Part shown: positions 782-36,862 of the stretch, in pieces
Numbering within the stretch: position 1 is the first letter of the stretch
How the letters are laid out: every line of letters begins with the position of its first letter
Assembly: GCF_900156685.1 (NCBI RefSeq)
Contig: NZ_FTOJ01000008.1
Coordinates: 1 to 64,000, forward strand
Origin: Chryseobacterium piscicola
Lineage (GTDB): Bacteria > Bacteroidota > Bacteroidia > Flavobacteriales > Weeksellaceae
Length of the DNA: 64,000 bases
Direction of reading: 5' to 3'
Translations under genes and position numbers: made by a program
The notes under the pieces: model-generated
Database searches by the model: none
What the model was told of the DNA's origin: nothing
The model's input: only the letters and a program-made list of their open reading frames with translations

Positions 782-813
782 CGTGTAACTAAAAACAAAT
801 TTAAATACTTTTG

Positions 814-10402: not shown

Positions 10403-10411
10403 CATCATTAT

Positions 10412-11188: not shown

Positions 11189-11189
11189 T

Positions 11190-13137: not shown

Positions 13138-13143
13138 AAAATA

Positions 13144-21237: not shown

Positions 21238-21282
21238 AAATAAATATTGAACAATAACACAAACGATAAAAAAGATTCTAAA

Positions 21283-22419
21283 ATGGGTCTCGAATATAAA
21301 ATTTGTACAAAGACTATTATGGATACCTCAGACTCTGGAATCAGCTTTAATGAATTCGGAGAAAGTGACTATTATACAAATTTTGTAACCCATATTTTAC
21401 CATCTTGGGATAATACCAAAAAAATTACAGATGACCTTTTCAAAATAGCTGAAAAGATTAAATACGAAGGAAAAAAAAGAGATTTTGATTGTATAATAGG
21501 GGTTAGCGGAGGATTAGATAGCTCGTATCTTTTATATGTTGCTAAAGAAATAATGGGACTAAGACCCCTGGCATTTCATGTAGATGCAGGATGGAATTCT
21601 GAAAAAGCAGTCAGCAATATAGAAAAGTTAATTCATCATTTAAAAGTTGATCTCTATACAGATGTTATCAACTGGGAGGAAATGAAAGATCTACAACTCG
21701 CTTTTTTTAACGCACAAATTCCTGATCAAGATTGCCAAGATATTGCTTTCTTTTCGGCCTTATATAGATTTGCAAAAAATAACAAAATAAAATATGTTCT
21801 TACTGGTGCCAATTATTCTACAGAATGCTGTAGAGAACCAGAAGAATGGGGTGCATATCCTGGGATTGACAAAACATTAATTCTTGATATTCACAAAAAA
21901 TTTGGAAAAAAGGAACTCAAAACATTTCCTCTTATCGATATATTAAACTATAAAATATATTACAAATATTTTTTAGGAATGCAGGTCGTGAAACCTTTAA
22001 ATTACATTCAATACAAAAAAGAAGATGCCGAAAACTTGCTTCACGAAAAATTTGGGTGGCAAAAATTTAATCATAAACACCAAGAATCAATTTTTACAAG
22101 ATTTTTAGAAGATTTTTGGTTCCCGAAAAAATTTGGTTTTGATAGAAGAAGAGCCCATTTCTCTAGTCTCATACTTACAGAACAAATGACAAGAGATGAA
22201 GCCATCAAAAGAATAGAAAAACCAGAGTATTCCGAAGAGTTTTTATTGAGTGAATTCGAGTTTGTTGCACAAAAACTAGATATTTCTGTAGAAGATTTCA
22301 AAAAAATATTTAATGGTAAAAACAAAACGTACCACAATTATAAAAATAAAAAGAGAATTATAGATTTTGGTGCAAGAACTATGAGAAGTATAGGATTTGA
22401 AAAAAGACTCTTCAGATGA
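21283..22419 (+). CDS. N-acetyl-sugar amidotransferase (WbpG/LfnA/PseA-like)
   Basis: The protein has the ATP pyrophosphatase P-loop SGGLDSS (75-81) after a family start of the type YKICTKTIMDTSDSGISF. FHVDAGWNS and LTGANYSTECCREPEEWG are also typical. With HisH and HisF homologues directly downstream, it should turn an acetamido group into an acetamidino group, as shown genetically for WbpG and LfnA in Pseudomonas. The frame opens at TTG 21247, but ATG 21283 matches the usual family start. Its stop overlaps the HisH-like gene. The sugar genes that follow suggest the substrate is a 2-acetamido-2,6-dideoxy-L-hexose. Confidence 0.85.
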   Translation: MGLEYKICTKTIMDTSDSGISFNEFGESDYYTNFVTHILPSWDNTKKITDDLFKIAEKIKYEGKKRDFDCIIGVSGGLDSSYLLYVAKEIMGLRPLAFHVDAGWNSEKAVSNIEKLIHHLKVDLYTDVINWEEMKDLQLAFFNAQIPDQDCQDIAFFSALYRFAKNNKIKYVLTGANYSTECCREPEEWGAYPGIDKTLILDIHKKFGKKELKTFPLIDILNYKIYYKYFLGMQVVKPLNYIQYKKEDAENLLHEKFGWQKFNHKHQESIFTRFLEDFWFPKKFGFDRRRAHFSSLILTEQMTRDEAIKRIEKPEYSEEFLLSEFEFVAQKLDISVEDFKKIFNGKNKTYHNYKNKKRIIDFGARTMRSIGFEKRLFR

Positions 22420-23030
22420 TTACAATAGTAGATTACGGTGTAGGAAATTTAAGGGCTTTTGTAAATCTTTACAAAAGGCTAAATATCCCTACGAAAATTG
22501 CACAAAATAAAAGTGATCTTGAAAACGCCCAGAAGCTCCTGCTTCCAGGAGTAGGCCATTATGATTTTGCGATGAAACAACTCAATGAATCTGGAATGAA
22601 AGATACACTTGATGAACTGGTGTTAAGAAAGAAAATTCCAGTTTTAGGCGTTTGTGTAGGAATGCAGATGATGGCCAAATCAAGCGAAGAAGGAAAACTG
22701 GAAGGATTGGGATGGCTGGATGCTGTTGTGAAAAAAATTGATGAAACAAAAATTAATCAGATCACAAAATTACCTCACATGGGGTGGAATTGTGTTGAAG
22801 TGAATCAAAAAACAAAACTTTTTGAAAGTCTTGAAAATAATCCAGAATTTTACTTTCTACACTCGTATTATTTTAGCTGTAATGATTTTTCAAATAGTAT
22901 TGGCACTACAGAATATGGTGGCAATTTTACTTCAGCAGTGAATCATAACAATATCTATGGAATACAGTTCCATCCAGAAAAAAGTCATCGTAATGGAGAA
23001 GTATTATTGTGTAACTTTGCAAAAATTTAG
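22416..23030 (+). CDS. HisH-like glutaminase subunit for sugar amidotransfer
   Basis: A class I glutamine amidotransferase with nucleophile Cys80 in LGVCVGMQMM and the His186/Glu188 pair in QFHPEKS, so the glutaminase triad is intact. LLPGVGHYDFAM is typical of HisH. No other histidine gene is nearby, and it is coupled to the WbpG-like gene by a 4-base overlap. It most likely supplies ammonia for the amidino sugar rather than for histidine synthesis. Confidence 0.87.
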   Translation: MITIVDYGVGNLRAFVNLYKRLNIPTKIAQNKSDLENAQKLLLPGVGHYDFAMKQLNESGMKDTLDELVLRKKIPVLGVCVGMQMMAKSSEEGKLEGLGWLDAVVKKIDETKINQITKLPHMGWNCVEVNQKTKLFESLENNPEFYFLHSYYFSCNDFSNSIGTTEYGGNFTSAVNHNNIYGIQFHPEKSHRNGEVLLCNFAKI

Positions 23031-23033
23031 GTA

Positions 23034-23789
23034 ATGCTAAGACCTAGAATTATACCAAGCCTGCTTATTCAGAATAATGGTCTTGTAAAAACAGTTAATT
23101 TTAGAAACCCTGTCTACATTGGTGATCCTATCAATACGGTTAGAATTTTCAATGAAAAAGAAGTTGATGAATTATCAGTTTTTGATATTGATGCTTCAGT
23201 TAAAGGAACTGAACCCAATTATCAGCTGATTGAGAAAATAGCTAAGCAAGCAAGAATGCCAATCTGCTACGGTGGAGGTGTAAAAACTATAGAACAGGCT
23301 TACAGGATATCTGAATTAGGAGTAGAAAAAATAGCATTGTCTTCAGGAGCTTTTGAAAAACCAGAGCTACTGCAACAAATAGCTTTTAAAATTGGAAATC
23401 AAAGTGTAGTATTGGTTTTAGATCTTAAAAAAAATATATCCGGAAAATATAATATTATGATTCATAACGGATTAAAAAGCATTGATGCAGATCCCTTTGA
23501 AATCATTACACAAGCAAAACAAATGGGAGTTGGTGAAATTATACTCAATTCCATAGATCAAGACGGAAAAATGAATGGTTTTGATTATGATATTATTGAC
23601 CAAGCAAGAAACGCAACCTCCTTACCACTTACCGTTTTGGGTGGCGCAGGAAGTTTAGAAGATATAAAAAAAGTCATTAACAAATATGGGATAATTGGTG
23701 TAGCTGCAGGAAGTTTATTTGTTTTTAAAGGCAAATACAAAGCAGTTTTAATTAATTACCCATCAAAAGAAGATAAGAAAAACTTATAA
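23034..23789 (+). CDS. HisF-like synthase subunit for sugar amidotransfer
   Basis: A (beta-alpha)8 protein of 251 residues starting LRPRIIPSLL, with the HisF-like phosphate-binding stretches CYGGGVKTIEQ and LTVLGGAGSLEDI. FDIDAS and NSIDQDGKMNGFD carry the Asp residues at the barrel top. With HisH it probably channels ammonia to the WbpG-like enzyme. It starts 3 bases after the HisH-like gene. Confidence 0.87.
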   Translation: MLRPRIIPSLLIQNNGLVKTVNFRNPVYIGDPINTVRIFNEKEVDELSVFDIDASVKGTEPNYQLIEKIAKQARMPICYGGGVKTIEQAYRISELGVEKIALSSGAFEKPELLQQIAFKIGNQSVVLVLDLKKNISGKYNIMIHNGLKSIDADPFEIITQAKQMGVGEIILNSIDQDGKMNGFDYDIIDQARNATSLPLTVLGGAGSLEDIKKVINKYGIIGVAAGSLFVFKGKYKAVLINYPSKEDKKNL

Positions 23790-23798
23790 AACATATTT

Positions 23799-24791
23799 AT
23801 GGAAATTAAAGATAGCATTCTGCTAATTACTGGAGGAACAGGATCTTTTGGTACAGCAGTTCTCAATAGATTTTTACATACAGATCATTTTAAAGAAATT
23901 AGAATCTTTTCGAGAGACGAGAAGAAGCAAGATGATATGCGTAATTTTTATAAAAATGATAAAATAAAATATTTTATTGGGGATGTGCGCGATTTTAATA
24001 GCGTAGACTACGCCATGAAAAATGTAGACTATGTCTTCCATGCAGCAGCATTAAAACAAGTGCCTTCTTGCGAATTTTTTCCTATGCAGGCAGTGAAAAC
24101 AAATGTAGAAGGAACTCAAAACGTCATTCGTGCAGCAGCGGCCAATAAAGTAAAAAAAGTAATTTGCTTATCAACAGATAAAGCGGCCTATCCAATCAAT
24201 GCAATGGGGATTTCCAAAGCAATGATGGAGAAAGTAGCTGTAGCAGAAGCCAGAAATCTTGTAGATACTGTTGTTTGCCTTACCCGATACGGAAACGTAA
24301 TGGCTTCCAGAGGTTCGGTAATCCCATTATTCTTGAATCAAATACAAAATAATGAAGATATAACCATTACTGATCCTAATATGACTCGTTTTCTAATGTC
24401 ATTAGACGAAGCAGTAGAATTGGTTCTTTTTGCTTTTGAACATGGCAACCCGGGAGATTTATTTGTAAACAAAGCTCCTGCAGCCACAATCGGCGATTTG
24501 GCAAAGGCTGTGCTTGAACTGAAAAATGCAAATAGCAAAATAAAAATTATAGGAACCAGACACGGTGAAAAATTATATGAAACTCTCTGCACACGAGAAG
24601 AGATGATGAATGCTGAAGATATGGGAGATTTTTATAGAATCCCTGCAGATAACAGAGACTTGAATTATGCTAAATATTTTTCCCAAGGAAGCCATATAGA
24701 AAAAACTATCGAAGACTACAATTCACATAATACAAAAAGAGAAGATGTGGAAGGAGTTAAAAAATTACTTGAAAAATTAGATTTATTTTAG
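23799..24791 (+). CDS. UDP-GlcNAc 4,6-dehydratase/5-epimerase, CapE/WbjB/FnlA-like
   Basis: A soluble 330-residue extended SDR enzyme with TGGTGSFG at 11-18 and the Met-type active site MGISK (M136, K140, with T126), as in CapE/FnlA. HAAALKQVPSCEFFP and RYGNVMASRGSVIPLF are conserved in this family. It starts the UDP-L-FucNAc or UDP-L-QuiNAc branch by dehydration and C5 epimerisation of UDP-GlcNAc. It differs from the large membrane dehydratase at 814. It heads a tight block with the cupin, 2-epimerase and reductase genes. Confidence 0.9.
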   Translation: MEIKDSILLITGGTGSFGTAVLNRFLHTDHFKEIRIFSRDEKKQDDMRNFYKNDKIKYFIGDVRDFNSVDYAMKNVDYVFHAAALKQVPSCEFFPMQAVKTNVEGTQNVIRAAAANKVKKVICLSTDKAAYPINAMGISKAMMEKVAVAEARNLVDTVVCLTRYGNVMASRGSVIPLFLNQIQNNEDITITDPNMTRFLMSLDEAVELVLFAFEHGNPGDLFVNKAPAATIGDLAKAVLELKNANSKIKIIGTRHGEKLYETLCTREEMMNAEDMGDFYRIPADNRDLNYAKYFSQGSHIEKTIEDYNSHNTKREDVEGVKKLLEKLDLF

Positions 24792-24800
24792 AATTAGAAT

Positions 24801-25208
24801 ATGGATTTTTTACAAGGCCAATGTTTTGAGGATAATAGAGGAAAGCTCTACTGTAGTAATGATTTAGACCTAAGCCTTGTAAAAAGAATGTATGTAATAG
24901 AGAATATTAATACCGATATTTGTAGAGCTTGGCAAGCACATAAAATTGAAAAAAGATGGTTTGTAGCCACAAAAGGTTCTTTTAGGATTAAGCTAATTAA
25001 AATAGACGATTTTGAAAATCCTTCTAAAAATTTAATCATAGAAAACTTTGTATTAGACTCAAAATCAATGGATTCTATGTTTGTGGATTCTGGTTTTGCT
25101 ACTTCTATACAAGCATTGGAAAATGATGCAAAATTAGTTGTTTTTTCAGATTACCATTTCGGAGAACTGTCTGATTATTATAAGTTTGATTCACAAAATT
25201 GGAAGTAA
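24801..25208 (+). CDS. RmlC-like cupin sugar isomerase/epimerase
   Basis: A single-domain cupin of 135 residues with RAWQAHKIEKRWFVATKGSF near 40-60, resembling small sugar 3- or 3,5-epimerase-like proteins of polysaccharide loci. In S. aureus CapF a C-terminal cupin performs C3 epimerisation of the 4-keto-L-sugar. Here the cupin is free-standing between the dehydratase and 2-epimerase genes. If active, it would favour an L-FucNAc-type product. Confidence 0.65.
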   Translation: MDFLQGQCFEDNRGKLYCSNDLDLSLVKRMYVIENINTDICRAWQAHKIEKRWFVATKGSFRIKLIKIDDFENPSKNLIIENFVLDSKSMDSMFVDSGFATSIQALENDAKLVVFSDYHFGELSDYYKFDSQNWK

Positions 25209-25217
25209 AATAAAATT

Positions 25218-26339
25218 ATGAAAAAATTAAAAGTTGTTACTATACTAGGAACCAGACCGGAAATTATCCGATTAACAGAATGTATAAAAAAATGCGATCA
25301 ATATTTTGATCATATTTTGATACATACAGGGCAAAATTACGATTATGAACTAAACGAGATTTTTTTCGAAGATTTAGAATTACGTAAACCTGATTATTTT
25401 TTGAATGTTGCGGGAAATCATCTCGGTGAAACGATAGGTAATGTAATTTCTAAATCATTTGAAATCCTGTCACAAGAAAAACCAGATGCACTTTTAGTAT
25501 TAGGCGATACAAATAGTGTATTGAGTACCATTGCAGCCAAACGACTGAAAATTCCTATTTTTCATATGGAAGCAGGTAACAGATGTTATGATCAAAATGT
25601 ACCCGAAGAAATTAATAGAAAAATATCAGATCATATTAGTGATATCAACCTCACTTATACCGAAAATAGTAGAAGATATTTACTGAGTGAAGGCTTTCGT
25701 AAAGATCATGTTTTTGTAACAGGTTCTCCTCTACAAGAAGTACTTAATAAATATAAAACAAAAATTGAAAACAGTGATGTAGTTGAACGTTTATCATTAG
25801 AGAAAAATAATTTTATTGTTGTAAGCGCACATCGGGAAGAAAATATAGATCTTGATAACCATTTTGAAATATTGGTAGAATCAATTAATGCAGTAGCCGA
25901 AAAGTATCAGATGCCAATCATTTTCTCAACACATCCAAGGACAAAAAATAGAATCGAAAAAAATAAAATTCAATTTCATCATTTAATCAAAAATGTTGCA
26001 CCTCTTGGCTTTTTTGATTACGTTAAACTGCAGAGTCAATCGTTCATAGTTCTTTCAGATAGCGGAACCATAAGCGAAGAATCTGCAATGATGAGTTTTC
26101 CTGCTGTAAGCATTCGTACAAGTACTGAAAGACCAGAGGCAATAGATGCAGGAACAATTGTTCTAGGAGGGATTTCAAAAGATCAAATGCTTAATGCTAT
26201 TGAGATTTCAAAAGGATTGTTTAATGCTGAAATTAAATTACCTTTTGAGTACGAAGTAACTAATACTTCAGACAGGGTTATTAAAGCTATTCAAAGTTAT
26301 ACAGCAATTGTAAATAAAGTAATTTGGGACAAAAAATGA
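25218..26339 (+). CDS. UDP-N-acetyl-L-sugar 2-epimerase (CapG/FnlC/WecB family)
   Basis: A non-hydrolysing UDP-GlcNAc 2-epimerase fold: ILGTRPEIIRL at the start, HTGQNYDYELNEIFFEDL, LVLGDTNSV, HMEAGNRCYDQNVPEEINR and VLSDSGTISEES. The CYDQNVPEEINRK stretch is typical of the CapG/FnlC subgroup that acts on 2,6-dideoxy-L-hexosamines. It is full length (373 aa). Its TGA overlaps the ATG of the next gene. Confidence 0.87.
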   Translation: MKKLKVVTILGTRPEIIRLTECIKKCDQYFDHILIHTGQNYDYELNEIFFEDLELRKPDYFLNVAGNHLGETIGNVISKSFEILSQEKPDALLVLGDTNSVLSTIAAKRLKIPIFHMEAGNRCYDQNVPEEINRKISDHISDINLTYTENSRRYLLSEGFRKDHVFVTGSPLQEVLNKYKTKIENSDVVERLSLEKNNFIVVSAHREENIDLDNHFEILVESINAVAEKYQMPIIFSTHPRTKNRIEKNKIQFHHLIKNVAPLGFFDYVKLQSQSFIVLSDSGTISEESAMMSFPAVSIRTSTERPEAIDAGTIVLGGISKDQMLNAIEISKGLFNAEIKLPFEYEVTNTSDRVIKAIQSYTAIVNKVIWDKK

Positions 26340-27184
26340 AAAAAATACTTGTTTTAGGAATTAAGGGAATGGCTGGGCATGTTATCTACAAAAATCTTAA
26401 AGATAAAAACCAACATGAGGTGTGGGGAATTGCCAGAAATATTAATGCAAATGGAAATGAGATTTCTTTAGATGTTTCCGAAACTGAGAAACTTAAAGAG
26501 ATTATTACTCAGTATAGCTTTGATTCAATCATCAATTGCATTGGAATATTAAATAAAGATGCAGAAGATAATCCTGCAAAAGCAATATGGTTTAATAGCT
26601 ATTTTCCACACTTATTAGAAGAGATTACTAAACATACCAAAACAAAAGTAATCCACATTAGTACAGATTGCGTATTCAATGGTAAGAAAGGAAATTATAG
26701 TGAAAAAGATGTGAAAGATGGTGAAGGTTTCTATGCACAATCTAAAGCATTGGGGGAGATTGATAATACAAAAGATCTTACTATTAGAACATCTATTATC
26801 GGGCCCGAACTAAACAATAACGGGATTGGTCTTTTTCACTGGTTTATGAATCAAAACGGTAAAGTAAATGGGTATACATCTGCGTATTGGAGCGGTGTAA
26901 CCACATTAGAGCTCGCAAAAGCGGTAGAGCATGTTCTTGAAAATTCATATCAAGGAATATTGCATCTTACAAATGGAAATCCTATAAATAAATTTGATTT
27001 AATTACTCTTTTTAAAAATATTTGGCATAAAAACAATGTTGAAATAATACCTTATGATGGTAAAAATGTAGATAAATCTTTACAGAAGTCAACAATATTA
27101 GCTCATCAAGTTCCAGATTATCAAAAAATGCTTCAAGAGCAGAAATTGTGGATGAAAGAATTCTCTAATCTCTATACCTACTAA
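26336..27184 (+). CDS. 4-keto-sugar reductase, RmlD-like (WbvR type)
   Basis: An SDR reductase with ILVLGIKGMAGHV at the N-terminus and ISTDCVFNGKKGNYSE and YAQSKALGE (YxxxK) in the middle, as in RmlD. In this context it would reduce the 4-keto-L-sugar made by the CapE-like enzyme, the role of WbvR in UDP-L-QuiNAc synthesis. The frame opens at TTG 26324, but ATG 26336 overlaps the previous stop and gives a normal N-terminus. Whether the product is L-FucNAc, L-RhaNAc or L-QuiNAc is open. Confidence 0.8.
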   Translation: MKKILVLGIKGMAGHVIYKNLKDKNQHEVWGIARNINANGNEISLDVSETEKLKEIITQYSFDSIINCIGILNKDAEDNPAKAIWFNSYFPHLLEEITKHTKTKVIHISTDCVFNGKKGNYSEKDVKDGEGFYAQSKALGEIDNTKDLTIRTSIIGPELNNNGIGLFHWFMNQNGKVNGYTSAYWSGVTTLELAKAVEHVLENSYQGILHLTNGNPINKFDLITLFKNIWHKNNVEIIPYDGKNVDKSLQKSTILAHQVPDYQKMLQEQKLWMKEFSNLYTY

Positions 27185-27185
27185 A

Positions 27186-28379
27186 TTGAATATTTTATTT
27201 GTTTTTTTTACAATGTCTCATCTGTCGCAATCTTCTATGTATAGCGATATGGTAAACGTTTTTCGAGAAAATGGGCATCAAGTTTTTCCAATAGCTCCCA
27301 TCAATGAAGTGGGGAAAAAAACATCTTTTATTTCAAAAGAAAATGAAATTGAAGTTTTAAGAGTTAAAACTTTAGATGTTTTTAGTAAAAATAAATTTAA
27401 AAAAGGCTTTGCAAACCTTTTGCTTTCTCATCAATTTAAAAATAGTTACAACAAGTTTTGGAAAGATAAGAAAATAGATTTAATTGTAGTTGCAACACCT
27501 TCCGTAATGTTTGCAGATTTTGTAGCATTTCTTAAAAAGAAACATAAAGCAAAGACACTGCTTATGCAAAAAGATATTTTTCCTCAAAATGCGGTAGATT
27601 TAGGATACATGAAAAAAAATGGCATTACCTATAATTTTTTTAAAAAGCACGAATTAAAGCTGCTGAAAACTGCCGATTTTATTGGATGTACTTCTCCTGG
27701 AAACATAGAATATTTGCTACAAAATAATGATTTTCTTATTAAAGAGAACATGAGATTACTTTATAATAGTACAAAATTATTAGAATTTTCTCAAGATGAT
27801 AATATCAAAATAAAATACAACTTACAAGATAAATATGTTGTAGTTTTCGGAGGAAATATGGGAAAACCTCAGCAATTAGAAAATGTACTTTTACTGGCAA
27901 AAAAATGTGAAATATTTATTGATGTTGTTTTTCTAATCATAGGTTCGGGTACTGAAGTAGATGCCTTGAAAGTAGATGCATCTCAGCAAGGTTTGAAAAA
28001 TATCAATTTTGTGGAAAAAGTTCCCAGAAAAGAATATTTTCAGTTACTATCAAATTGTAATGTAGGTCTTATAAGTTTACATAAAAATTTTACAGTTCCA
28101 AATACACCGATGAAGCTTAACGATTATCTTAATGCAGGAATACCAGTACTGGCTTCAATAGATAGAAGTAATGATTTAGGATTTCTCCTAGAAAAAAACC
28201 AAATGGGTGAATTTGCTTATGCAGATACTCCAGAAGATTTGTTTGATGCATTTAAAAAACTTTATCAGGATAAAGAAAGACGTAAAAAGCTAGGCCAAAA
28301 TGGAAAAGAATTTTGTAAAGAAAATTTATCTGCCTACAAATCTTATCAAACTATTATCAAACTTGTGGAAAATGTATAA
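27186..28379 (+). CDS. WbuB-like glycosyltransferase (family 4)
   Basis: A GT-B enzyme with the WbuB-type N-terminus [20 protein letters not shown] and the inner motif [13 protein letters not shown]. The C-terminal donor site is [13 protein letters not shown] and [19 protein letters not shown]. WbuB relatives transfer L-FucNAc-type sugars, in line with the genes just upstream. The start is TTG at 27186, one base after the preceding stop; the next ATG would remove the first strand. It overlaps the initiating transferase gene by 8 bases. Confidence 0.85.
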
Positions 28380-28977
28380 AAACACCCTCAAAAGGATTTT
28401 CGATTTCACTATTGCTTTTGTTGGGCTAATGGTATTATCGCCTATCTTTATTGTCGTTATTATAGGTCTATATATAGCGAATCAAGGTAAACCGTTTTTT
28501 TTTCAGTCACGGCCTGGTCTTAACGAGAGAATTTTTAGGATTATAAAATTCAAAACCATGAATGACAAAAAAGATGCTAATGGAAATCTTTTACCAGATT
28601 CAGAACGCTTAACGCTGGTGGGTGCATTTGTGCGGAAAACATCATTAGACGAGTTGCCACAATTAATAAATGTTTTAAAAGGAGATATGTCTTTAATTGG
28701 GCCAAGACCTCTTTTACCACAATACCTATCTTTGTATAGTACAGAACAAAAGCGAAGGCACCTCGTCCGTCCAGGGATTACTGGCTGGGCACAAGTAAAC
28801 GGCAGAAACGCTATTTCTTGGAATAAAAAGTTTCAATTAGATGTTTGGTATGTGGATAATATATCATTAAATTTGGACACGAAAATTTTCTTTAAAACGA
28901 TAAAAAAAGTATTTGTAAGAGAAGGGATTGCGGCAGAAGGGCAGGCTACAACCGAAGCTTTTAATGGAAGTAATTAA
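28372..28977 (+). CDS. initiating sugar-phosphate transferase, PglC/WcaJ C-terminal type
   Basis: A 201-residue protein with one N-terminal hydrophobic helix (about 12-36) and the phosphoglycosyl transferase domain: [21 protein letters not shown], catalytic Asp93-Glu94 in TSLDELPQL, and [10 protein letters not shown]. Its small size is that of PglC. It would transfer a sugar phosphate, perhaps a bacillosamine-like sugar, to undecaprenyl phosphate. The frame is open from 28300, but ATG 28372 overlaps the end of the previous gene in the usual way and starts right before the helix. Confidence 0.9.
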
Positions 28978-28983
28978 AAATTA

Positions 28984-30000
28984 ATGGGAGCAGTATTAAA
29001 ACACGTCGAGTATATCTTTCCGGATAGAGCATATACAAATGATGATTTATCCAAAAAATTTCCAGATTATGATTTTAGTAAATTTGATACTAAAGTTGGA
29101 ATTAAAAAAAGATATTGGGTTAACGAAAACGAAACAGCATTAGATTTGGCTGAAAAGGCATGTTTAAAACTTTTTCAGTACTTTGATAAAAATGATGTAG
29201 ATTTTATCATTTACTGTACCCAAAGCCCAGAATATATTTTACCTACTACTGCCTGCATTCTTCAGCAGAGACTTGGATTAAACACTTCAGTTGGCGCCTT
29301 TGATTTTAATTTAGGATGTAGTGGCTATATCTATGGACTGAGCATGGCGAAAGGTTTGGTAGAGACCAAACAAGCAAAAAATGTACTGTTGGTAACTGCA
29401 GAAACATATTCAAAGTATCTTCATTCAGACGATAAATCAAATAGAGGGATTTTTGGTGATGCAGCAACAGCTACCCTGGTTTCTTTTGATGATGAGAAGA
29501 ATAATATTCAAAACTTTTTGTTTGGAACAGACGGTTTGGGGTATGATAAACTGATTATTAAAAACGGGGCAGCTAAAAATAAAATAGAAACCAACTCTGA
29601 AGTGAAAGAGTATGGTTCCGGAAACAAATATACAGACAATGAACTGTATATGGATGGTCCTGAGATATTTAACTTTACAAGTGCAGTAATTCCAAAATTT
29701 ACCTTAAACTTGCTGGAAAAAAATAATCTCGAAATGGAGGATTGCAACTTGTTTATCTTTCATCAGGCAAATCAATTTATGCTAGATTTTTTAAGAAAAA
29801 AAATTAAAGCGCCAAAAGAAAGATTCTATATCGATCTAGAAGATGGAGGAAATACAGTCTCTTGTACAATCCCAATTGCTTTGAAAAGATGGAGTGATGC
29901 ATATTCTGGCGAATTTCCCGTGAAAAATATTACCTTAGTGGGATTTGGTGTAGGATTGTCTTGGGGAGGAACCGTAATTAGTGTTGATAGAAAATTGTAA
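28984..30000 (+). CDS. ketoacyl-ACP synthase III-like enzyme (first copy)
   Basis: A 338-residue FabH-fold protein with a complete triad: Cys112 in NLGCSGYIYG, His260 in FHQANQF and Asn290 in DGGNTVS. FabH-type enzymes condense an acyl-CoA starter with malonyl-ACP. It lies in a polysaccharide locus beside an acyl carrier protein, a ketoreductase and a second KAS III, not with fatty-acid genes. It probably belongs to a dedicated acyl pathway for sugar decoration. Its TAA overlaps the next ATG. Confidence 0.85.
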   Translation: MGAVLKHVEYIFPDRAYTNDDLSKKFPDYDFSKFDTKVGIKKRYWVNENETALDLAEKACLKLFQYFDKNDVDFIIYCTQSPEYILPTTACILQQRLGLNTSVGAFDFNLGCSGYIYGLSMAKGLVETKQAKNVLLVTAETYSKYLHSDDKSNRGIFGDAATATLVSFDDEKNNIQNFLFGTDGLGYDKLIIKNGAAKNKIETNSEVKEYGSGNKYTDNELYMDGPEIFNFTSAVIPKFTLNLLEKNNLEMEDCNLFIFHQANQFMLDFLRKKIKAPKERFYIDLEDGGNTVSCTIPIALKRWSDAYSGEFPVKNITLVGFGVGLSWGGTVISVDRKL

Positions 30001-30644
30001 TGAAAGATTTATACTTAATTGGAGCTGGCGGCTTTTCTACAGAGATTTTACATTTGGTAGAAATGATTCAGAAAGAAAAAAAACAATGGAACCAAGTGTT
30101 TTTTATTGACGATAATCCCAAGATTCATAATACCGAACTTCGCACTGTGAAAATTCTTGCAGGATTAGAGTTTTTCGAAACAGTTGATTTTGAAGTAGAT
30201 GTTGTTATTACTATAAATAATGTTAAAACAAGAGAGGTTATAATTAATAAATTAAAAGCTAATCAGAAAATAAACTTTCCCAATTTATTTTCACCTTTTG
30301 CTATTGTAGATTATGATTATCTTAAAATAGGAGAAGGTAATATTATTATGCATTATGTAATTCTTTCTACTCAGCTGGAAATAGGCAATTTCAATATTTT
30401 TAATTCTTACACAGGGATTGGTCATGATTGTAAAATTGAAGACATCAATAGCTTTGGTCCCAGAGTAGCAATTTCTGGAGCCGTATCAATTGGAAGCATG
30501 AATGATTTTGGCGTCAATTCCACTGTTTTACAAAACAAAAATATAGGGAATAATAATAATATCTGGATGAATACAAGCATTATGCGAAACCTGAAAGACG
30601 GTAATACCTATTTCGGAATTCCTGCAAAAAAGATAAACTTATGA
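30000..30644 (+). CDS. sugar O/N-acyltransferase, NeuD/PglD-like
   Basis: An N-terminal Rossmann-like part (LYLIGAGGFSTEI) is followed by a left-handed beta-helix of hexapeptide repeats. His142 in GIGHDC is at the position of the catalytic base in PglD-type enzymes. The length (214 aa) is normal. PglD acylates the 4-amino group of UDP-4-amino-sugars with acetyl-CoA. Set between a KAS III and a Rieske oxygenase gene, this copy might instead use the acyl group made by this module; that is inference. It overlaps both neighbours (TAATG and ATGA). Confidence 0.83.
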   Translation: MKDLYLIGAGGFSTEILHLVEMIQKEKKQWNQVFFIDDNPKIHNTELRTVKILAGLEFFETVDFEVDVVITINNVKTREVIINKLKANQKINFPNLFSPFAIVDYDYLKIGEGNIIMHYVILSTQLEIGNFNIFNSYTGIGHDCKIEDINSFGPRVAISGAVSIGSMNDFGVNSTVLQNKNIGNNNNIWMNTSIMRNLKDGNTYFGIPAKKINL

Positions 30645-31732
30645 TTAAGAATATTAATTATACCAATGAAAATGTACTTCAAGAAGAGCTTGAGCAAATT
30701 TTTCATAAAAGCTGGTTTTTTGTAGGGCTTTCAGATAAACTCCAAAATAATAACGACTATATCACCTACAGATGTGGTTCAGTTTCAATATTTGTTCAGA
30801 ACTTTGGAGCTGAACTGAAATGTTTTTCAAATGTTTGTTTGCATAGATTTAATAATATTCATAACGGAAATGAAGGTAACGGGCACGTAATTTGTTCTTA
30901 TCACAACTGGGTTTATGATGACAAAGGAAGTCCTATGGTGAGGTCTGAATGTTTAAAAGAAGAATTGTCATTGTGCAACAGACCAAAATTAGAACAATAT
31001 GAAGTAGAAACTTGTGGGAAATTTGTTTTTGCTAAAGTAAATAAAGAAGATTCTGTTTCTCTGAATGAACATTTGGGGTCTTTTTATGATAAATTAATTG
31101 AAATTTCTTCATTCTTTGATAAAATTATTAATGACGAAACAGTAGTTCTTGATCATAAAGCAAATTGGAAATTATTAGTTGAAAATGTTTTAGAATGTTA
31201 TCACTGCAGCAGTGTACACAAAGAAACATTAGTTCCCATCGGAATTGGAGGAAAGAAACCGGAAAATCATTTCTGGGAAAGTGGTCATGATAAAGTTGAT
31301 TATCCGATAAGAACTACAGCAATGCAAGCAGAAAGAGAAAGTAAACTTACTTTTCTTACTAAAACTCAATACCCACATAAATCATTACAGCATTGGCACA
31401 TCTTCCCCAATCTGTTTATTACAAGTACCGTCGGAAATCTGTTTTATATCGGGAGATTAACCCCAGATAAGCCAGATTTTACACAATTACACGCTCAGTT
31501 TGTAAAACCTACATATACAGAACTTACAAAAAGAGAAGGAATGCTACTTAATGCTTATGCGCAAACCTCTTTAGAATCATCAACCAAAGTTATTTATGAA
31601 GATAGAGCGATTTTGGAGGAAATTCAGAAAAATTTAAGTATTATCCCGGAGCAAAAACAAATATTCGGTGAAGAAGAATTTAGAATTAAATCTTTTCACC
31701 AAAATATAAATAATATTATTAACTATAAATAA
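30641..31732 (+). CDS. Rieske non-heme iron oxygenase alpha subunit-like
   Basis: The Rieske site is complete: Cys66-x-His68 and Cys85-x-x-His88. The mononuclear iron site also looks intact, with the bridging motif NVLECYH (His188) and His193, and a late Asp in YEDRAILEEIQ. This is the alpha-subunit layout of ring-hydroxylating and related oxygenases (363 aa). Such enzymes need a reductase; the PaaE-like gene at 33805-34869 is the obvious candidate. The substrate is unknown. Position suggests hydroxylation of an acyl chain or an activated sugar. It starts within the stop of the acyltransferase gene. Confidence 0.87.
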   Translation: MIKNINYTNENVLQEELEQIFHKSWFFVGLSDKLQNNNDYITYRCGSVSIFVQNFGAELKCFSNVCLHRFNNIHNGNEGNGHVICSYHNWVYDDKGSPMVRSECLKEELSLCNRPKLEQYEVETCGKFVFAKVNKEDSVSLNEHLGSFYDKLIEISSFFDKIINDETVVLDHKANWKLLVENVLECYHCSSVHKETLVPIGIGGKKPENHFWESGHDKVDYPIRTTAMQAERESKLTFLTKTQYPHKSLQHWHIFPNLFITSTVGNLFYIGRLTPDKPDFTQLHAQFVKPTYTELTKREGMLLNAYAQTSLESSTKVIYEDRAILEEIQKNLSIIPEQKQIFGEEEFRIKSFHQNINNIINYK

Positions 31733-31739
31733 AAATACA

Positions 31740-31958
31740 ATGGAACAGTTTTTAGAAAACTTTTACGAATTATTAGAAGAAACGGATAGAGACGCAATTA
31801 CTCCAGATACAGAATTCAAAAATCTTGATGAGTGGAACTCTATGACAGCTCTTATGCTTATCGCAATGTTTGACGAACAGTATGAGGCTAAATTAAATGG
31901 AGACAGCATAAATAAAGCTACTACTCTTACAGATTTGTATCAATTAACTCAAAAATAG
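31740..31958 (+). CDS. small acyl carrier protein
   Basis: An acidic 72-residue four-helix-type protein. The phosphopantetheine Ser34 lies in EWNSMTAL, in place of the common DSL. Size, acidity and the downstream KAS III/reductase genes support the call. Family members carry acyl intermediates on a 4'-phosphopantetheine arm. It lies 7 bases after the Rieske gene and 3 before the second KAS III, so it should be made with them. It is distinct from housekeeping AcpP, which has DSLD. Confidence 0.8.
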   Translation: MEQFLENFYELLEETDRDAITPDTEFKNLDEWNSMTALMLIAMFDEQYEAKLNGDSINKATTLTDLYQLTQK

Positions 31959-31961
31959 AAT

Positions 31962-33008
31962 ATGGCATTGTTCTCTATTGAAAATGTACGTATAGCCGGA
32001 GTTGTATCCGCAGTCCCTCCCCATATTGTAAATAATCTGGAGAACGACTTGTTTTCAACAAGAGAGGAAGCAGAAAAATTTATTTCTGTAACCGGAATTG
32101 CTGAGAAAAGACATGTGGACAGTAAGACATGTACTTCAGATTTATGCATAAAAGCCGCAAATGACCTTTTAGAAAAACTAAACTGGCAAAAAGAGGATAT
32201 AGATATAGTGGTCATGGTTACTCAAACACCTGATTATCCAGTACCCAACACATCAATTATCATTCAAGATAAATTAGGACTGCCAAAAAGCACCGTTTGT
32301 TTTGATGTCCCTCTTGGATGTAGTGGGTACATTTACGGATTATCTATTCTGTCAAATTTTCTTCAGAACGGACAGCTCAAGAAAGGTCTTCTATTGGTAG
32401 GTGATACGCTCAGTAAGCAGTGCTCACCATTAGACAAAGCTACTTACCCTTTATTTGGAGATGCAGGAACTGCTACTGCATTACAATATTCTGTAGGTGG
32501 AAAAATGGATTTTAATTTATGGTCAGACGGAAGCGGGTTTGAGGATATTATAGTTCCAGAAGGTGGTTACAGAAAACCTTTCACTGAAGAATCTTTGGTT
32601 TTAAAAGAAGATAAAGATGGAAATAAACGTTCAGGTATCAACACTTACATGAACGGAACTAATGTTTTTTCTTTCGGAATCGGAACGGTGACTCAAGAAC
32701 TGAAAAAATTTATTGAGCACTTTCAAATTGATAAGGAGCAAATAAAATATTTTTATTTCCACCAAGCAAACCGTTTTATGAATGATATGATTAGAAAAAA
32801 ATTAAAACTAACAACAGAGCAAGTTCCTTATTCTTTAGATAAATATGGCAATACAAGCTCTGCAACAATTCCTGTGACAATGACGAAACAAGATACAAAT
32901 CTTGAAAATACAGAAGTTGTAATGTGCGGTTTTGGCGTTGGATTAAGCATTGGTATCGTACGAATGAAGTTTGAGGAAGGAATTATAAACGATTTAATTG
33001 AATATTAA
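31962..33008 (+). CDS. ketoacyl-ACP synthase III-like enzyme (second copy)
   Basis: A 348-residue FabH-fold protein with Cys120 (PLGCSGYIYG), His267 (FHQANRF) and Asn297 (KYGNTSS), so the triad is intact. It shares the GCSGYIYGLS active-site stretch with the copy at 28984 but differs over most of its length. This suggests an old paralogue pair, not a recent duplication. Two synthases may set two condensations, or one may act as an acyltransferase. Its last base is the first of the next ATG. Confidence 0.85.
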   Translation: MALFSIENVRIAGVVSAVPPHIVNNLENDLFSTREEAEKFISVTGIAEKRHVDSKTCTSDLCIKAANDLLEKLNWQKEDIDIVVMVTQTPDYPVPNTSIIIQDKLGLPKSTVCFDVPLGCSGYIYGLSILSNFLQNGQLKKGLLLVGDTLSKQCSPLDKATYPLFGDAGTATALQYSVGGKMDFNLWSDGSGFEDIIVPEGGYRKPFTEESLVLKEDKDGNKRSGINTYMNGTNVFSFGIGTVTQELKKFIEHFQIDKEQIKYFYFHQANRFMNDMIRKKLKLTTEQVPYSLDKYGNTSSATIPVTMTKQDTNLENTEVVMCGFGVGLSIGIVRMKFEEGIINDLIEY

Positions 33009-33757
33009 TGAATGCTTTTTCACTTGAAAATAAAACAATCCTGGTTACTGGTGCTACATCAGGAATAGGATTTGAAGTTTGTAAACAAATCATTAATGCT
33101 GGAGGGAACTTTATTGGTTTAGGACGAAACACAGAGCAGCTGGATAAATTTATTTCAGAAAATAATCTCACAGGCTCATCTGCAAGGTTTTTAGATGTTA
33201 TACAACTAGAAAGCATTCCTGAGTTAGTAGATTCTCTTGAAGTGAAAATAGATGGGTTTGTGCACTCTGCAGGAATTGTAGAAAATAATCCTATTCAGTT
33301 TTTTAATGAAGAATTGTATAATAAAATTCGGACAGTAAATCTTGATTCGGCTTTGGTTTTTATATCTCATCTGCTTAAAAAGAAAAAATTTAACAAACCA
33401 GCATCTATCGTATTTGTTAGTTCAATCTCCGGATTGTACGGAATGAAAGGCAATGGTTTGTACGGTATTACAAAAGCCGCATTGGGTATAATGGCAAAAA
33501 CCTATGCTAATGAATTGGCATTCAAGAAAATAAGGGTAAATACTGTTGCTCCAGGTATGGTAAATACGCAAATTACGCTAGACGCAGGTAATTTTTTATC
33601 TGAAGAAGTTATTAATGAGGACAAAAAAAAATATCCTTTAGGTTATGGAGAACCCGAAGATGTTGCATTGCCAATCGTGTTTCTTTTATCAGAAGCAAGC
33701 AAGTGGATAACAGGTCAAGATCTAATCCTCGACGGTGGCAGAACAGCAATTATATAA
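33008..33757 (+). CDS. short-chain dehydrogenase, FabG-like 3-ketoacyl reductase
   Basis: A classical SDR of 249 residues: TGATSGIG at 14-21, the Asn-Ser-Tyr-Lys tetrad with Asn111, Ser139, Tyr152 and Lys156 (GLYGITKAAL), and a C-terminal GQDLILDGG. FabG-type enzymes reduce 3-ketoacyl-ACP to 3-hydroxyacyl-ACP. In this block it would produce a 3-hydroxyacyl group after condensation by the KAS III enzymes. A hydroxysugar dehydrogenase cannot be excluded. It is followed by a bidirectional terminator. Confidence 0.82.
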   Translation: MNAFSLENKTILVTGATSGIGFEVCKQIINAGGNFIGLGRNTEQLDKFISENNLTGSSARFLDVIQLESIPELVDSLEVKIDGFVHSAGIVENNPIQFFNEELYNKIRTVNLDSALVFISHLLKKKKFNKPASIVFVSSISGLYGMKGNGLYGITKAALGIMAKTYANELAFKKIRVNTVAPGMVNTQITLDAGNFLSEEVINEDKKKYPLGYGEPEDVALPIVFLLSEASKWITGQDLILDGGRTAII

Positions 33758-33762
33758 TCAAA

Positions 33763-33798
33763 AAAAAACCTTACAATTTAAATAATGTAAGGTTTTTT
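33763..33798. terminator. bidirectional Rho-independent terminator
   Basis: A 13-base perfect stem (33763-33775 with 33786-33798, core ACCTTACA/TGTAAGGT) around a 10-base loop, A-rich on one side and T-rich on the other. It separates convergent genes and should stop transcription from both sides, ending the 28-33 kb transcription unit. Confidence 0.85.
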
Positions 33799-33804
33799 TC
33801 TTTA

Positions 33805-34869
33805 TTAAATTTTATCATAATTCAATTCAATTTCATCGGAAACAGGATAAGATTGGCAAACTACAATTTTCCCATCCCGAATCTCTTCCTCAGAAAGAAC
33901 TTCATTTTTTACCATATTAACCTGCCCTTTCGTTAGCATACAAAGACAAGCGCTACAGATTGCATTTTGGCAGGAGTAAGGTATGTCGAATCCTGCATCT
34001 AAAATTGAGTCCAGAAGCAATACATTTTTATTTACCTTAATCATGCTTTCATCTCCATCTAAAATAAGCTTTACAACAGTCTCTCCTGCGATTATAGAAG
34101 ATGAATTGATGATTTGTTCGGGCGACTGCTGAGAATAGAAAAGCTCATGTAGAATATTTTCTTTCTTAATGTTTTGTGATAAAAAACTGCTCGTTGTACT
34201 GCTAATAAGGTCTTCGGGACCACAAACATAAAATTTTTCAATATTTGAAAGATCAATATGATTCTTTAAAAGAGTATCAAGAATAACTTTTTGATTTATT
34301 CTGCCAAAATGATGCCCATCAATATTTTCCTCAGTGTAAAATCTAATTATTTTAAACCTATTACCAAAATTCTCAGATAATTCTAAAATCTCGTTATGAA
34401 ATATGGTTTGCTCTACACTCTTGTTTCCATAAAACAAAACAATATTATCATTACTGTGAGTTAAAATCGATTGAATGATAGAGAAAATAGGTGTTATTCC
34501 GCTTCCCGCTGCCACTGCAACAAAGTTTTTTGAACTACCTGCTGTTTCTTCATAATAAAAATTGCCTTCAGGTTCAGCTATTTCTAATGTATCTCCAATT
34601 TTTAATTTTTGCTCAACATATTGTGAGAAAACACCACCTTGTACACATTTCACTATAATTTCAAAAGTGTCAGTTTTTGAAGGAACTGATGAGATTGAGT
34701 AGCATCTCCTGATTTCTTTATCATCTATACTATGTTTTATAGTTATATACTGACCAGATTTAAAAACAAAAGATTTTCTCATTTCTGATGGAATGTAAAA
34801 TACTAATGAATAAGCTTTGGGTGTTGCTTTAGAAATTTCTTTTATAACTAAAGAGTGGAATTTCTGCAT
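33805..34869 (-). CDS. PaaE-like ferredoxin-NAD(P)H reductase, possible Rieske oxygenase partner
   Basis: FAD domain (RRCYSISSVP), NAD(P) domain (AAGSGITPIFSII, YVCGPEDLI) and a C-terminal [2Fe-2S] domain with Cys300, Cys305, Cys308 and Cys338. It is the only minus-strand gene in the locus, with its own promoter and a shared terminator. It likely passes electrons to the Rieske oxygenase at 30641, although a genome-wide role is possible. The frame extends to 34899, but the -7 box at 34897-34904 overlaps that start, so ATG 34869 (MQKFHSLV) is chosen. It is a paralogue of the E3-like protein at 9362. Confidence 0.85.
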   Translation of the reverse strand: MQKFHSLVIKEISKATPKAYSLVFYIPSEMRKSFVFKSGQYITIKHSIDDKEIRRCYSISSVPSKTDTFEIIVKCVQGGVFSQYVEQKLKIGDTLEIAEPEGNFYYEETAGSSKNFVAVAAGSGITPIFSIIQSILTHSNDNIVLFYGNKSVEQTIFHNEILELSENFGNRFKIIRFYTEENIDGHHFGRINQKVILDTLLKNHIDLSNIEKFYVCGPEDLISSTTSSFLSQNIKKENILHELFYSQQSPEQIINSSSIIAGETVVKLILDGDESMIKVNKNVLLLDSILDAGFDIPYSCQNAICSACLCMLTKGQVNMVKNEVLSEEEIRDGKIVVCQSYPVSDEIELNYDKI

Positions 34870-34961: not shown

Positions 34962-36095
34962 ATGAACACAAAAATCTGGCTTTCATCACCACACATGGGC
35001 GGAACCGAATTAAAATACATACACGAAGCTTTTGATGCCAATTGGGTAGCTCCTTTAGGACCAAACGTAGATGGATTCGAAACAGATATAGAAAAATTTT
35101 TAAATGCTGATGTGAAAGTGGCCGTACTTTCTGCGGGAACAGCAGCACTTCATTTAGCATTAATAGAATGCGATGTAAAACATAACGATGAGGTTATTTG
35201 TCAGTCTATGACGTTCTCTGCGTCTGCCAATCCTATTGCTTACTGCGGTGCAAAACCCATCTTTATCGATAGCGAACCAGAAACCTGGAATATGTGTCCA
35301 AAAGCTTTGCGTGAAGCCATAGAAAACAGAATTTCAAAAGGAATACTGCCTAAAGCAATCATCGTGGTGCATTTGTATGGAATGCCGGCAAAAATGGATC
35401 AAATCATGGCAATTGCCAATGAATTCAATATCCCTGTTATAGAAGATGCAGCAGAAGCTTTGGGCTCAAAATACAAAAACGAAAATTGTGGAACTTTCGG
35501 GAAGTTTGGAATTTTATCTTTCAACGGAAATAAAATTATTACAACTTCTGGCGGTGGCGCTTTAGTTTGCCATACCCAAGAAGATAAAGATAAAGCTGTT
35601 TTCTTATCTACACAAGCCAGAGACAATGCCCCGCATTATCAGCATTCAAAAATTGGTTATAATTATAGAATGAGTAATATCGTAGCAGGAATCGGACGTG
35701 GCCAGATGGAAGTTTTAAATAACAGGGTAGAAGCACGCAGAAAAATGCACGATTTTTATGTTCAAACATTCAAAGATATAGACGGTGTGGAAGTTTTCTC
35801 TGAGCCTTCAGAAGATTTTTATTCTAATCATTGGCTGTCTGCAATTATTGTTGATGAAACAATAACTGGTAAAAATAGAGAAGAACTCAGGTTGGCCTTT
35901 TTAGAAGATAATATAGAATCTAGACCACTTTGGAAACCAATGCATTTACAACCAGTGTTTTCAGACGCATTATACTTCGGTACAGATGTTTCAGAAAAAC
36001 TTTTTGATAACGGACTTTGCTTGCCTTCAGGATCCAACCTTACCGATGAAGACAGAAAGCGTATTGAAATCGTTATTAGAAATTTCTTTGCTTAA
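34962..36095 (+). CDS. UDP-4-keto-sugar aminotransferase, PglE/DegT family
   Basis: A DegT/DnrJ/EryC1 PLP enzyme of 377 residues. The start MNTKIWLSSPHMGGTE, the GTAALHLAL phosphate-site stretch, EDAAEALGS and the PLP Lys191 in SFNGNKIITTSGGG fit the PglE/PerA-like branch. It would aminate C4 of UDP-4-keto-6-deoxy-GlcNAc made by the enzyme at 814, giving the substrate for the PglD-like acyltransferase. It lies at the far end of the locus under its own promoter and before a strong terminator. Confidence 0.88.
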   Translation: MNTKIWLSSPHMGGTELKYIHEAFDANWVAPLGPNVDGFETDIEKFLNADVKVAVLSAGTAALHLALIECDVKHNDEVICQSMTFSASANPIAYCGAKPIFIDSEPETWNMCPKALREAIENRISKGILPKAIIVVHLYGMPAKMDQIMAIANEFNIPVIEDAAEALGSKYKNENCGTFGKFGILSFNGNKIITTSGGGALVCHTQEDKDKAVFLSTQARDNAPHYQHSKIGYNYRMSNIVAGIGRGQMEVLNNRVEARRKMHDFYVQTFKDIDGVEVFSEPSEDFYSNHWLSAIIVDETITGKNREELRLAFLEDNIESRPLWKPMHLQPVFSDALYFGTDVSEKLFDNGLCLPSGSNLTDEDRKRIEIVIRNFFA

Positions 36096-36199: not shown

Positions 36200-36862
36200 A
36201 TGACATATTCCCCCACCATCAGAGAAAAGGGTTTTTATACTTCGCCTAAAATTAAAATTATTTCATTTTTTATGATCTTAATTTTTAGTATTTGCCATTC
36301 GCAAAATGAAGTAAAGGGTAATACTGTTTTTGCTCCCATCGGAATTATTAATTTCGCGGCAGAAAAACAAATTTCCAATCATTTATCATTGCAAATAGAA
36401 GCATTTGTTTCGCCTTGGAAATCATTCACAGGACGTCATCTGCAAATTTATTTAGGTACAGCAGAAACACGTTATTATTTCACAAAAAAACAAAATAAAT
36501 GGTTTCTGGGAGCTTATATCTCGGGAGGTGTATTTGATATACAAAAATACAATTATTGGAATGACAAGCATATTACAAATGAAGAAGGCGTTTCTTTGTA
36601 TAACGATGATGGGACGCCAAGAATTACCAGTCTATACCAACGTGGTTTTGTATATATACTTGGCGTAGATGCTGGTTATAAATTGAAAATGTCTGAACAT
36701 TTTAATCTTGAGGCATTTATTGGTGTAGGTACGGTACAGGGTTTCTATCATGGTTTTTTTGCAGATACCAATTTACGGTACGATAAGGCTGAAAAATGGA
36801 ATAAAAGCGGCGAAATTTTACCTACAAGAGGAGGTGTGATGATCTCCTATGTTTTTAAATAA
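36200..36862 (+). CDS. DUF3575-like outer-membrane beta-barrel protein
   Basis: A basic and hydrophobic N-terminus with FFMILIFSICHSQ suggests a signal peptide ending near residue 35. Alternating aromatic and polar strands follow (LQIEAFVSPWKSFTGRHLQIYLG, ETRYYF, WFLGAYISGGVF). The protein ends in SYVFK, a C-terminal aromatic residue pattern common in outer-membrane barrels. The length (220 aa) and pattern resemble DUF3575 proteins of Bacteroidetes. Function is unknown. Confidence 0.65.
   Translation: MTYSPTIREKGFYTSPKIKIISFFMILIFSICHSQNEVKGNTVFAPIGIINFAAEKQISNHLSLQIEAFVSPWKSFTGRHLQIYLGTAETRYYFTKKQNKWFLGAYISGGVFDIQKYNYWNDKHITNEEGVSLYNDDGTPRITSLYQRGFVYILGVDAGYKLKMSEHFNLEAFIGVGTVQGFYHGFFADTNLRYDKAEKWNKSGEILPTRGGVMISYVFK

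Follow-up and report, generated by a model that had tools for sequence, protein, structure and literature searches.

In Flavobacterium psychrophilum, the O-antigen locus contains the ketoacyl-acyl carrier protein synthase (KAS) genes wfpC and wfpE, the acyl carrier protein (ACP) gene wfpD, the reductase gene wfpF and the PglD-like gene wfpG, which are accompanied by PglC-, WbuB-, Fnl-, PglE- and PglF-like genes (PMC6519341). By gene assignment, Cisar et al. attributed wfpC-wfpG to the (3S,5S)-3,5-dihydroxyhexanoyl group on the C4 nitrogen of the 4-amino sugar QuiNAc4N, and the antigenicity of the lipopolysaccharide differs between strains with different acyl (R-group) genes (PMC6519341). The viosamine island of Pseudomonas syringae, vioA/vioS/acp/vioR/vioB/vioM/vioT, has counterparts in P. 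aeruginosa PAK, and mutants and mass spectrometry connected vioS/acp/vioR/vioB (one KAS, ACP, reductase and acyltransferase) with 3-hydroxybutyryl-viosamine (PMC3927599). Here we analyzed a stretch of 64,000 nucleotides from Chryseobacterium piscicola (contig NZ_FTOJ01000008.1, positions 1 to 64,000; the window below), in which an acyl cassette of this kind contains a gene for a Rieske oxygenase.

Like the P. syringae island, the window has genes for KAS III, ACP, ketoacyl reductase and an acyltransferase for a 4-amino-4,6-dideoxy sugar. The island differs in having one KAS, a C4 product and dTDP-viosamine on flagellin, and no Rieske gene is among its seven listed genes (PMC3927599). From the two systems we infer a rule by which one KAS would give a C4 chain and two KAS a C6 chain, with the hydroxyls coming from the ketoreductase; the two-KAS part of the rule is correlational. 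The initial annotation of the window had named the PAK flagellin island as precedent, but the closest precedent is F. psychrophilum. We consider it reasonably probable that the window encodes a glycan acyl cassette in which a tailoring Rieske monooxygenase hydroxylates the ACP-built chain, the product being destined for QuiNAc4N.

The Rieske gene and its acyl cassette

Six plus-strand genes and one minus-strand reductase gene are packed in 5.9 kb of the window, at 28984-34869:

28984-30000, plus strand: KAS1, a KAS III-like ketosynthase (PF08545/PF08541; triad Cys112/His260/Asn290)
30000-30644, plus strand: PglD/NeuD-like hexapeptide N-acyltransferase (PF17836; TIGR03570)
30641-31732, plus strand: Rieske non-heme iron oxygenase (PF00355 and PF00848, each above cut-off)
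31740-31958, plus strand: ACP of 72 aa with Ser34 (PF00550, 21.6 bits)
31962-33008, plus strand: KAS2, a second KAS III-like ketosynthase (PF08545/PF08541; triad Cys120/His267/Asn297)
33008-33757, plus strand: ketoreductase (KR), a FabG-like 3-ketoacyl-ACP reductase of the short-chain dehydrogenase/reductase (SDR) type with Ser139/Tyr152/Lys156 (PF13561, 148 bits)
33805-34869, minus strand: PaaE-type FAD/2Fe-2S NAD(P)H reductase (PF00970/PF00175/PF00111; TIGR02160)

Overlapping genome samples were searched with Rieske queries independent of neighboring genes. Matches were found in 10/320 genomes at the level of the family, 9/396 at that of the order and 4/380 at that of the phylum, giving 15 distinct Bacteroidota genomes in total, and in 15/15 of them the Rieske gene sits with the ACP, KR, KAS1 and KAS2 genes. 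The initial annotation had raised the case of homologous loci that retain the Rieske gene without ACP and KAS genes; when this was tested across genomes, all 15 were found to keep both. This co-location also ruled out the Rieske gene as a stray gene of the polysaccharide locus. Among 173 genomes of the window's genus, 10 carry both Rieske and KAS2 genes, two KAS2 only, none Rieske only and 161 neither (Fisher p about 1e-14), and among 57 loci, a Rieske gene is present in 30/35 with two or more KAS genes and in 0/22 with one (p about 2e-11); these p-values are only descriptive, because they take no account of shared ancestry and rest on genes labeled by their best BLAST hit within 6 kb.

The Flavobacterium loci L112 and L114 carry KAS1-ACP-KAS2-KR-PglD plus PglE without a Rieske gene, and their remaining genes are 50-71% identical to those of the Rieske-bearing loci L110 and L111. 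Because these sister loci without only the Rieske gene keep KAS1-ACP-KAS2-KR-PglD, the Rieske enzyme looks like an added tailoring step, not a core step, of the acyl cassette. Since Rieske-bearing loci differ in gene order, inheritance of a fixed order alone does not account for the association. Rieske and KR genes were exchanged together within one type of Flavobacterium locus: it has two Rieske versions (30-34% identical), which go with two KR versions (41-43%), while ACP and KAS1 are 88-97%, KAS2 75-81% and PglD 70-75% identical (pairs compared: L115/L116, L119/L118, L062/L061, L063/L060 and L124/L121). Across loci, Rieske distances correlate most closely with KR distances (r 0.83; partial 0.76, controlling for KAS1), followed by PglD (0.70; partial 0.61) and KAS2 (0.63; partial 0.42). 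The two Rieske-KR pairs may stand for alternative chemistries of oxidation, with a particular reductase matched to each.

The seven genes and the two intact Cys-His-Asn triads listed in the initial annotation were confirmed by domains and key residues. Both KAS proteins contain ACP_syn_III and ACP_syn_III_C domains and score under the cut-offs of the NCBIfam FabH subfamily models; the triad of KAS1 is unchanged in a 7-row alignment, and that of KAS2 is also unchanged among aligned relatives. The ACP is marginally above the PF00550 cut-off of 20.8 bits, and its Ser34 is unchanged across aligned relatives. The PglD-like protein is above the cut-off for PF17836 (PglD_N; 38.8 bits) and slightly under those for the hexapeptide repeat (26.2 bits, cut-off 27) and TIGR03570 (152.7 bits, cut-off 160.8). 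The reductase has FAD-binding, NAD-binding and C-terminal plant-type 2Fe-2S domains, and because it scores 278.7 bits against the TIGR02160 cut-off of 420.8, it is a relative of PaaE, not PaaE itself. The six plus-strand genes adjoin or share up to 4 bases, a spacing that suits a single transcription unit; the reductase gene is oriented oppositely. The cassette Rieske oxygenase is the single PF00355 protein of the source genome. By GC content (32.6% in the module and 32.3% in the window), nothing points to recent transfer. The intact residues and the conserved gene set ruled out a chance grouping or broken genes.

Several related loci carry other gene sets. The Rieske locus of L133 (3767-11969), with a pair each of KAS2-like and KR genes and an acyl-CoA ligase-like gene, may specify a longer or different chain. 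In L149, L150 and L125, KAS2 loci have an FkbH-domain protein, a methylmalonyl-CoA-epimerase-like protein and a second ACP-like open reading frame (ORF) replacing Rieske and KAS1, suggesting a different starter or extender unit. The KAS2 match of genome G023 (L146/L153) spans positions 21-348 only, with two in-frame stops flagged by the genome search, and in genome G156 (L016, 6211-7128) a 305-aa ORF, transposase-like by eye, lies between the KR and PaaE-type genes.

Active site and distribution of the Rieske enzyme

In 25/25 aligned Rieske sequences, the cluster ligands C66/H68/C85/H88 (CxH...CxxH), the iron site H188/H193/D321 and the bridging E185 are kept. The AlphaFold2 model of the window protein (mean per-residue confidence, pLDDT, 88.8) aligns along its entire length with CntA and other Rieske oxygenases, with a VIA-align Z of about 32 for CntA, tied with terephthalate and salicylate oxygenases; by sequence, CntA is the best solved match (22% identity). 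CntA is a Rieske carnitine monooxygenase that works with the CntB reductase (PMC7948474, PMC10952381). Its Y203 binds the quaternary amine, and the aromatic residue is said to set apart group V, the quaternary-ammonium Rieske oxygenases such as CntA and Stc2 (PMC7948474). At the position of Y203, the aligned sequences have Val (13/25) or Thr (12/25) and no aromatic residue, so the window enzyme does not belong with the CntA-type oxygenases of quaternary amines. A Cys-x-x-Cys by the iron site, present in some group V members (first Cys in 12/25 and second in 13/25 sequences, including the window) is replaced by Ser and Val in the other clade. The window enzyme resembles CntA in the ligands of the cluster, the bridging Glu, the 2-His-1-Asp site and the related type of reductase, and the Cys pair is shared by its own clade only; it is unlike CntA in lacking the aromatic residue, in having a second clade without the Cys pair and in belonging to glycan cassettes with no carnitine genes. 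The two may still share their chemistry. A weak but suggestive parallel is that carnitine, the CntA substrate, is a 3-hydroxybutyrate derivative.

The combination of Rieske and acyl genes is also found with other sugar genes and in other phyla, again in glycan loci. In L017, KAS1, ACP, KAS2, KR, Rieske and the reductase are kept, and an AAC(3)-like acyltransferase and Wbp-type sugar genes replace PglD and PglE. Plasmid pBGF3 of Burkholderia glumae BGR1 (NZ_DQ996271.1; L171) has the order VioA, KAS1, ACP, KAS2, KR, PglD-like, Rieske, with flagellin genes adjacent; it carries the same six components as the window and differs in its flagellin neighborhood and in having VioA in place of the PglE-like gene. 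No PaaE-like gene was seen adjoining this cassette, and its KAS2-like gene (L171, 17432-18533) is broken over two frames and unannotated in the record. In Azospirillum brasilense Sp7, a Rieske relative occurs with KAS III, two SDRs, GNAT, pseG, pseI and ACP-like genes. In A. ramasamyi, strain B510 and A. lipoferum, Rieske, KAS III, SDR and GNAT genes lie inside about 8 kb; the unannotated Azospirillum strain MTCC4039 has Rieske, KR-like and ACP-like ORFs, and in A. thermophilum a KAS III/SDR/GNAT trio lies about 11 kb from the Rieske gene (7/16 matching records of the plasmid survey were inspected). Given the gene contents of L017, B. glumae and Azospirillum, the Rieske gene stays with the acyl-synthesis genes even where sugar, acyltransferase and polymer differ.

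A contig classed as viral (IMGVR_UViG_3300016464_000711; L162, 3007-7665; also L169) carries ACP-KAS2-KR-Rieske-KAS1-PglD-like genes, and its Rieske protein is 51-52% identical to the L017/L018 copies. On further phage-like IMGVR contigs (L164/L175/L176 and L163/L177), Rieske genes adjoin genes for a virion structural protein, a dNMP kinase and a phage DNA-repair exonuclease. ORFs resembling PglD and KAS are present in L164, and ACP- and KR-like ones in L163. Phages may carry the acyl cassette. Phage GenBank records gave weak Rieske matches only (24-30%), which are annotated as catabolic dioxygenase or oxidoreductase or are unannotated.

Proposed pathway and alternatives

In the proposed pathway, the PglF- and PglE-like enzymes would make UDP-QuiNAc4N, as their families indicate, and on the ACP, two KAS III enzymes and KR would carry out two condensations and two ketoreductions to yield a 3,5-dihydroxyhexanoyl-type chain, following the one-KAS and two-KAS precedents. 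The Rieske enzyme, probably with the PaaE-type reductase as electron donor, would hydroxylate one more carbon of the chain or of an intermediate, and the simplest product would be a trihydroxyhexanoyl group. The PglD-like enzyme would move the acyl group onto the 4-amino group of the sugar, and the PglC-like transferase would start the repeat unit with the acylated sugar. Gene content and the two published systems lend good support to the earlier proposal that a chain is built on the ACP and transferred to a 4-amino sugar, presumably QuiNAc4N. It had called the acyl group short, but two KAS genes point to C6 and not to a shorter chain. The 3-hydroxyacyl or dihydroxyacyl amide that it foresaw also needs correction: the hydroxyls of a 3-hydroxy or 3,5-dihydroxy chain come from the ketoreductase, and therefore the Rieske enzyme should add something further. 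The presence of the extra oxygenase argues for a product more oxidized than 3,5-dihydroxyhexanoyl.

Several points weigh against this pathway. To our knowledge, no polymer is known from any Rieske-positive strain, and no trihydroxyhexanoyl sugar was found in our literature search. The locus counts are not phylogenetically independent. Since the Azospirillum loci seem to hold a single KAS III, the Rieske gene does not always come with a KAS pair. The lack of a Rieske gene in the wfp locus rests on the text of PMC6519341, which makes no mention of a Rieske oxygenase or reductase there and leaves some ORFs unnamed. The PaaE-type gene adjoins the cassette in 10/10 Rieske-positive genomes of the window's genus but in 0/20 Flavobacterium-type loci, which ruled it out as a constant cassette partner. 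In Flavobacterium, a PaaE-like gene lies elsewhere in 7/7 Rieske-positive genomes tested (39-41% identity to the window protein) and in 10/11 genomes without a Rieske gene (36-40% in nine and 32% in one); the remaining genome of these 11, which is incomplete, yielded no PaaE-like gene. In the window's genus, PaaE-like copies elsewhere in the genome are more distant (30-34%). The Flavobacterium reductase is probably supplied in trans.

The Rieske enzyme might act in the acyl pathway otherwise than by hydroxylation, through chain desaturation, oxidation of a hydroxyl to a ketone or ring formation; besides hydroxylation, Rieske oxygenases are reported to catalyze desaturation, C-C bond formation and other oxidations (PMC12445004), and the link of the gene to acyl genes and KR is compatible with any chain oxidation. 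We regard these outcomes as unlikely, and no sequence feature singles out any of them. Mono-oxygenation is the commonest outcome for Rieske enzymes of such type, which weighs against them. Oxidation of the sugar or its N-acetyl group instead of the variable acyl chain has a precedent in CMP-Neu5Ac hydroxylase, a Rieske enzyme that oxidizes the N-acetyl group of a sugar nucleotide, and the Rieske gene does lie near sugar-nucleotide genes. It is nevertheless quite unlikely in our judgment, since the Rieske gene stays with KAS/ACP/KR though the sugar genes vary (VioA in B. glumae, pseudaminic acid genes in A. brasilense and Wbp-type genes in L017) and despite the AAC(3)-like acyltransferase of L017, and the gene is absent from all 22 one-KAS loci, though those make sugars too.

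Transfer of the acyl product to an acceptor other than QuiNAc4N, such as a different amino sugar in the repeat unit or a small molecule for secretion, would suit the further unusual sugars of the locus, probably acetamidino-L-fucosamine (FucNAm) and a CDP-3,6-dideoxyhexose, and Flavobacterium loci such as L060-L063, which have no close PglE beside the cassette. In the window and the other loci of its genus, L017 excepted, the cassette has PglD-, PglC- and PglE-like genes beside it, and we hold this acceptor change to be very unlikely. Next to no credence is left for the Rieske/PaaE pair being an unrelated catabolic oxygenase of aromatic rings or quaternary amines that entered the locus by chance: the carnitine oxygenase CntA is the best solved relative, and weak matches far under cut-off come from several aromatic and betaine models of NCBIfam, but the co-location with the acyl cassette is complete (15/15) and the Y203 position is Val or Thr in 25/25 sequences. 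Co-location and the absent cation-binding Tyr ruled out a catabolic carnitine or betaine oxygenase. Hydroxylation of the ACP-built chain remains the reading that we prefer.

Surrounding locus and comparison with known systems

The genes around the cassette are those of a Wzx/Wzy-type polysaccharide locus:

811-2757, plus strand: PglF/WbpM-like nucleotide-sugar 4,6-dehydratase (PF02719, 397 bits)
23799-27184, plus strand: FnlA, a small cupin-like ORF, FnlC and FnlB, UDP-L-FucNAc pathway (TIGR04130, TIGR00236, gene order)
27186-28379, plus strand: WbuB-like glycosyltransferase, group 1 family (PF00534)
28372-28977, plus strand: PglC-like initiating sugar phosphotransferase, WfpB-like (PF02397, 214 bits)
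34962-36095, plus strand: LegC/PglE-like DegT aminotransferase, for the sugar 4-amino group (PF01041, 308 bits; TIGR04181)

The PglF/WbpM-like dehydratase probably takes the first step toward UDP-QuiNAc4N. FnlA scores 528 bits with TIGR04130, under the cut-off of 730, and the Fnl set reaches 256.5 bits with TIGR00236, above the cut-off of 210; the aminotransferase is under the TIGR04181 cut-off (393.5 bits, cut-off 420). A copy of the PglC-like gene, 58-82% identical, adjoins the cassette in many relatives. The wider locus also has Wza, Wzc, an EpsG-like polymerase, further glycosyltransferases and WbpG/HisH/HisF-like genes, of which Wza, Wzc and WbpG/HisH/HisF were named by eye from sequence. 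Together with the flanking dehydratase, Fnl, PglC-like and PglE-like genes, these bear out the placement of the cassette inside a polysaccharide locus by the initial annotation. The genes alone are compatible with the polymer being an O-antigen or a capsule. The closest named locus is that of Chryseobacterium edaphi, a genome in the window's genus found by genome search, with an 85% identical Rieske protein.

A CDP-3,6-dideoxyhexose set lies at 9362-14445 (AscD-like reductase, glucose-1-phosphate cytidylyltransferase, CDP-glucose 4,6-dehydratase, SDR and RfbH-like dehydrase). At 21247-27184, the WbpG/HisH/HisF-like genes are immediately 5' of FnlA/C/B, and together they suggest a FucNAm residue. 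A gene for a DUF3575 protein (36200-36862) follows the aminotransferase gene, and similar proteins are encoded near the same place in L002 and L016.

The open-licence literature (titles, abstracts and term counts) yielded no paper that places a Rieske gene in the synthesis of O-antigen or flagellin glycans. A dedicated oxygenase in the cassette would add a chemical step undescribed for such synthesis in the literature searched, and, if true, Rieske enzymes would gain a role on small aliphatic ACP-bound chains. The recurrence in other bacteria and phage-like contigs suggests a general way to diversify surface sugars. Tentatively, and with slightly more doubt than belief, we propose the Rieske enzyme as an aliphatic acyl hydroxylase of glycan assembly, part of a mobile cassette (two KAS III, ACP, KR, acyltransferase and Rieske) from which Bacteroidota and Proteobacteria would obtain polyhydroxylated C6 amides on the 4-amino sugars of their O-antigens, capsules and flagellins. 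Some phages would carry this cassette, and exchange of Rieske and KR as a unit would alter antigenic chemistry. Paired loci with and without the Rieske gene, or with either Rieske-KR pair, make the function testable by comparison of polymer structures.

Compared by gene content as described, the window is like the F. psychrophilum R1 locus in having two KAS, ACP, KR and PglD-like genes beside PglC-, WbuB-, Fnl- and PglE-like genes, and its WbuB-like gene adjoins pglC, matching the position of the WbuB homologue WfpA (PMC6519341). Unlike R1 as described there, it has a Rieske oxygenase and a PaaE-type reductase, and it also has CDP-3,6-dideoxyhexose and WbpG/HisH/HisF genes. The core without the oxygenase is a gene set already known from F. 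psychrophilum, and the Rieske gene is the new part.

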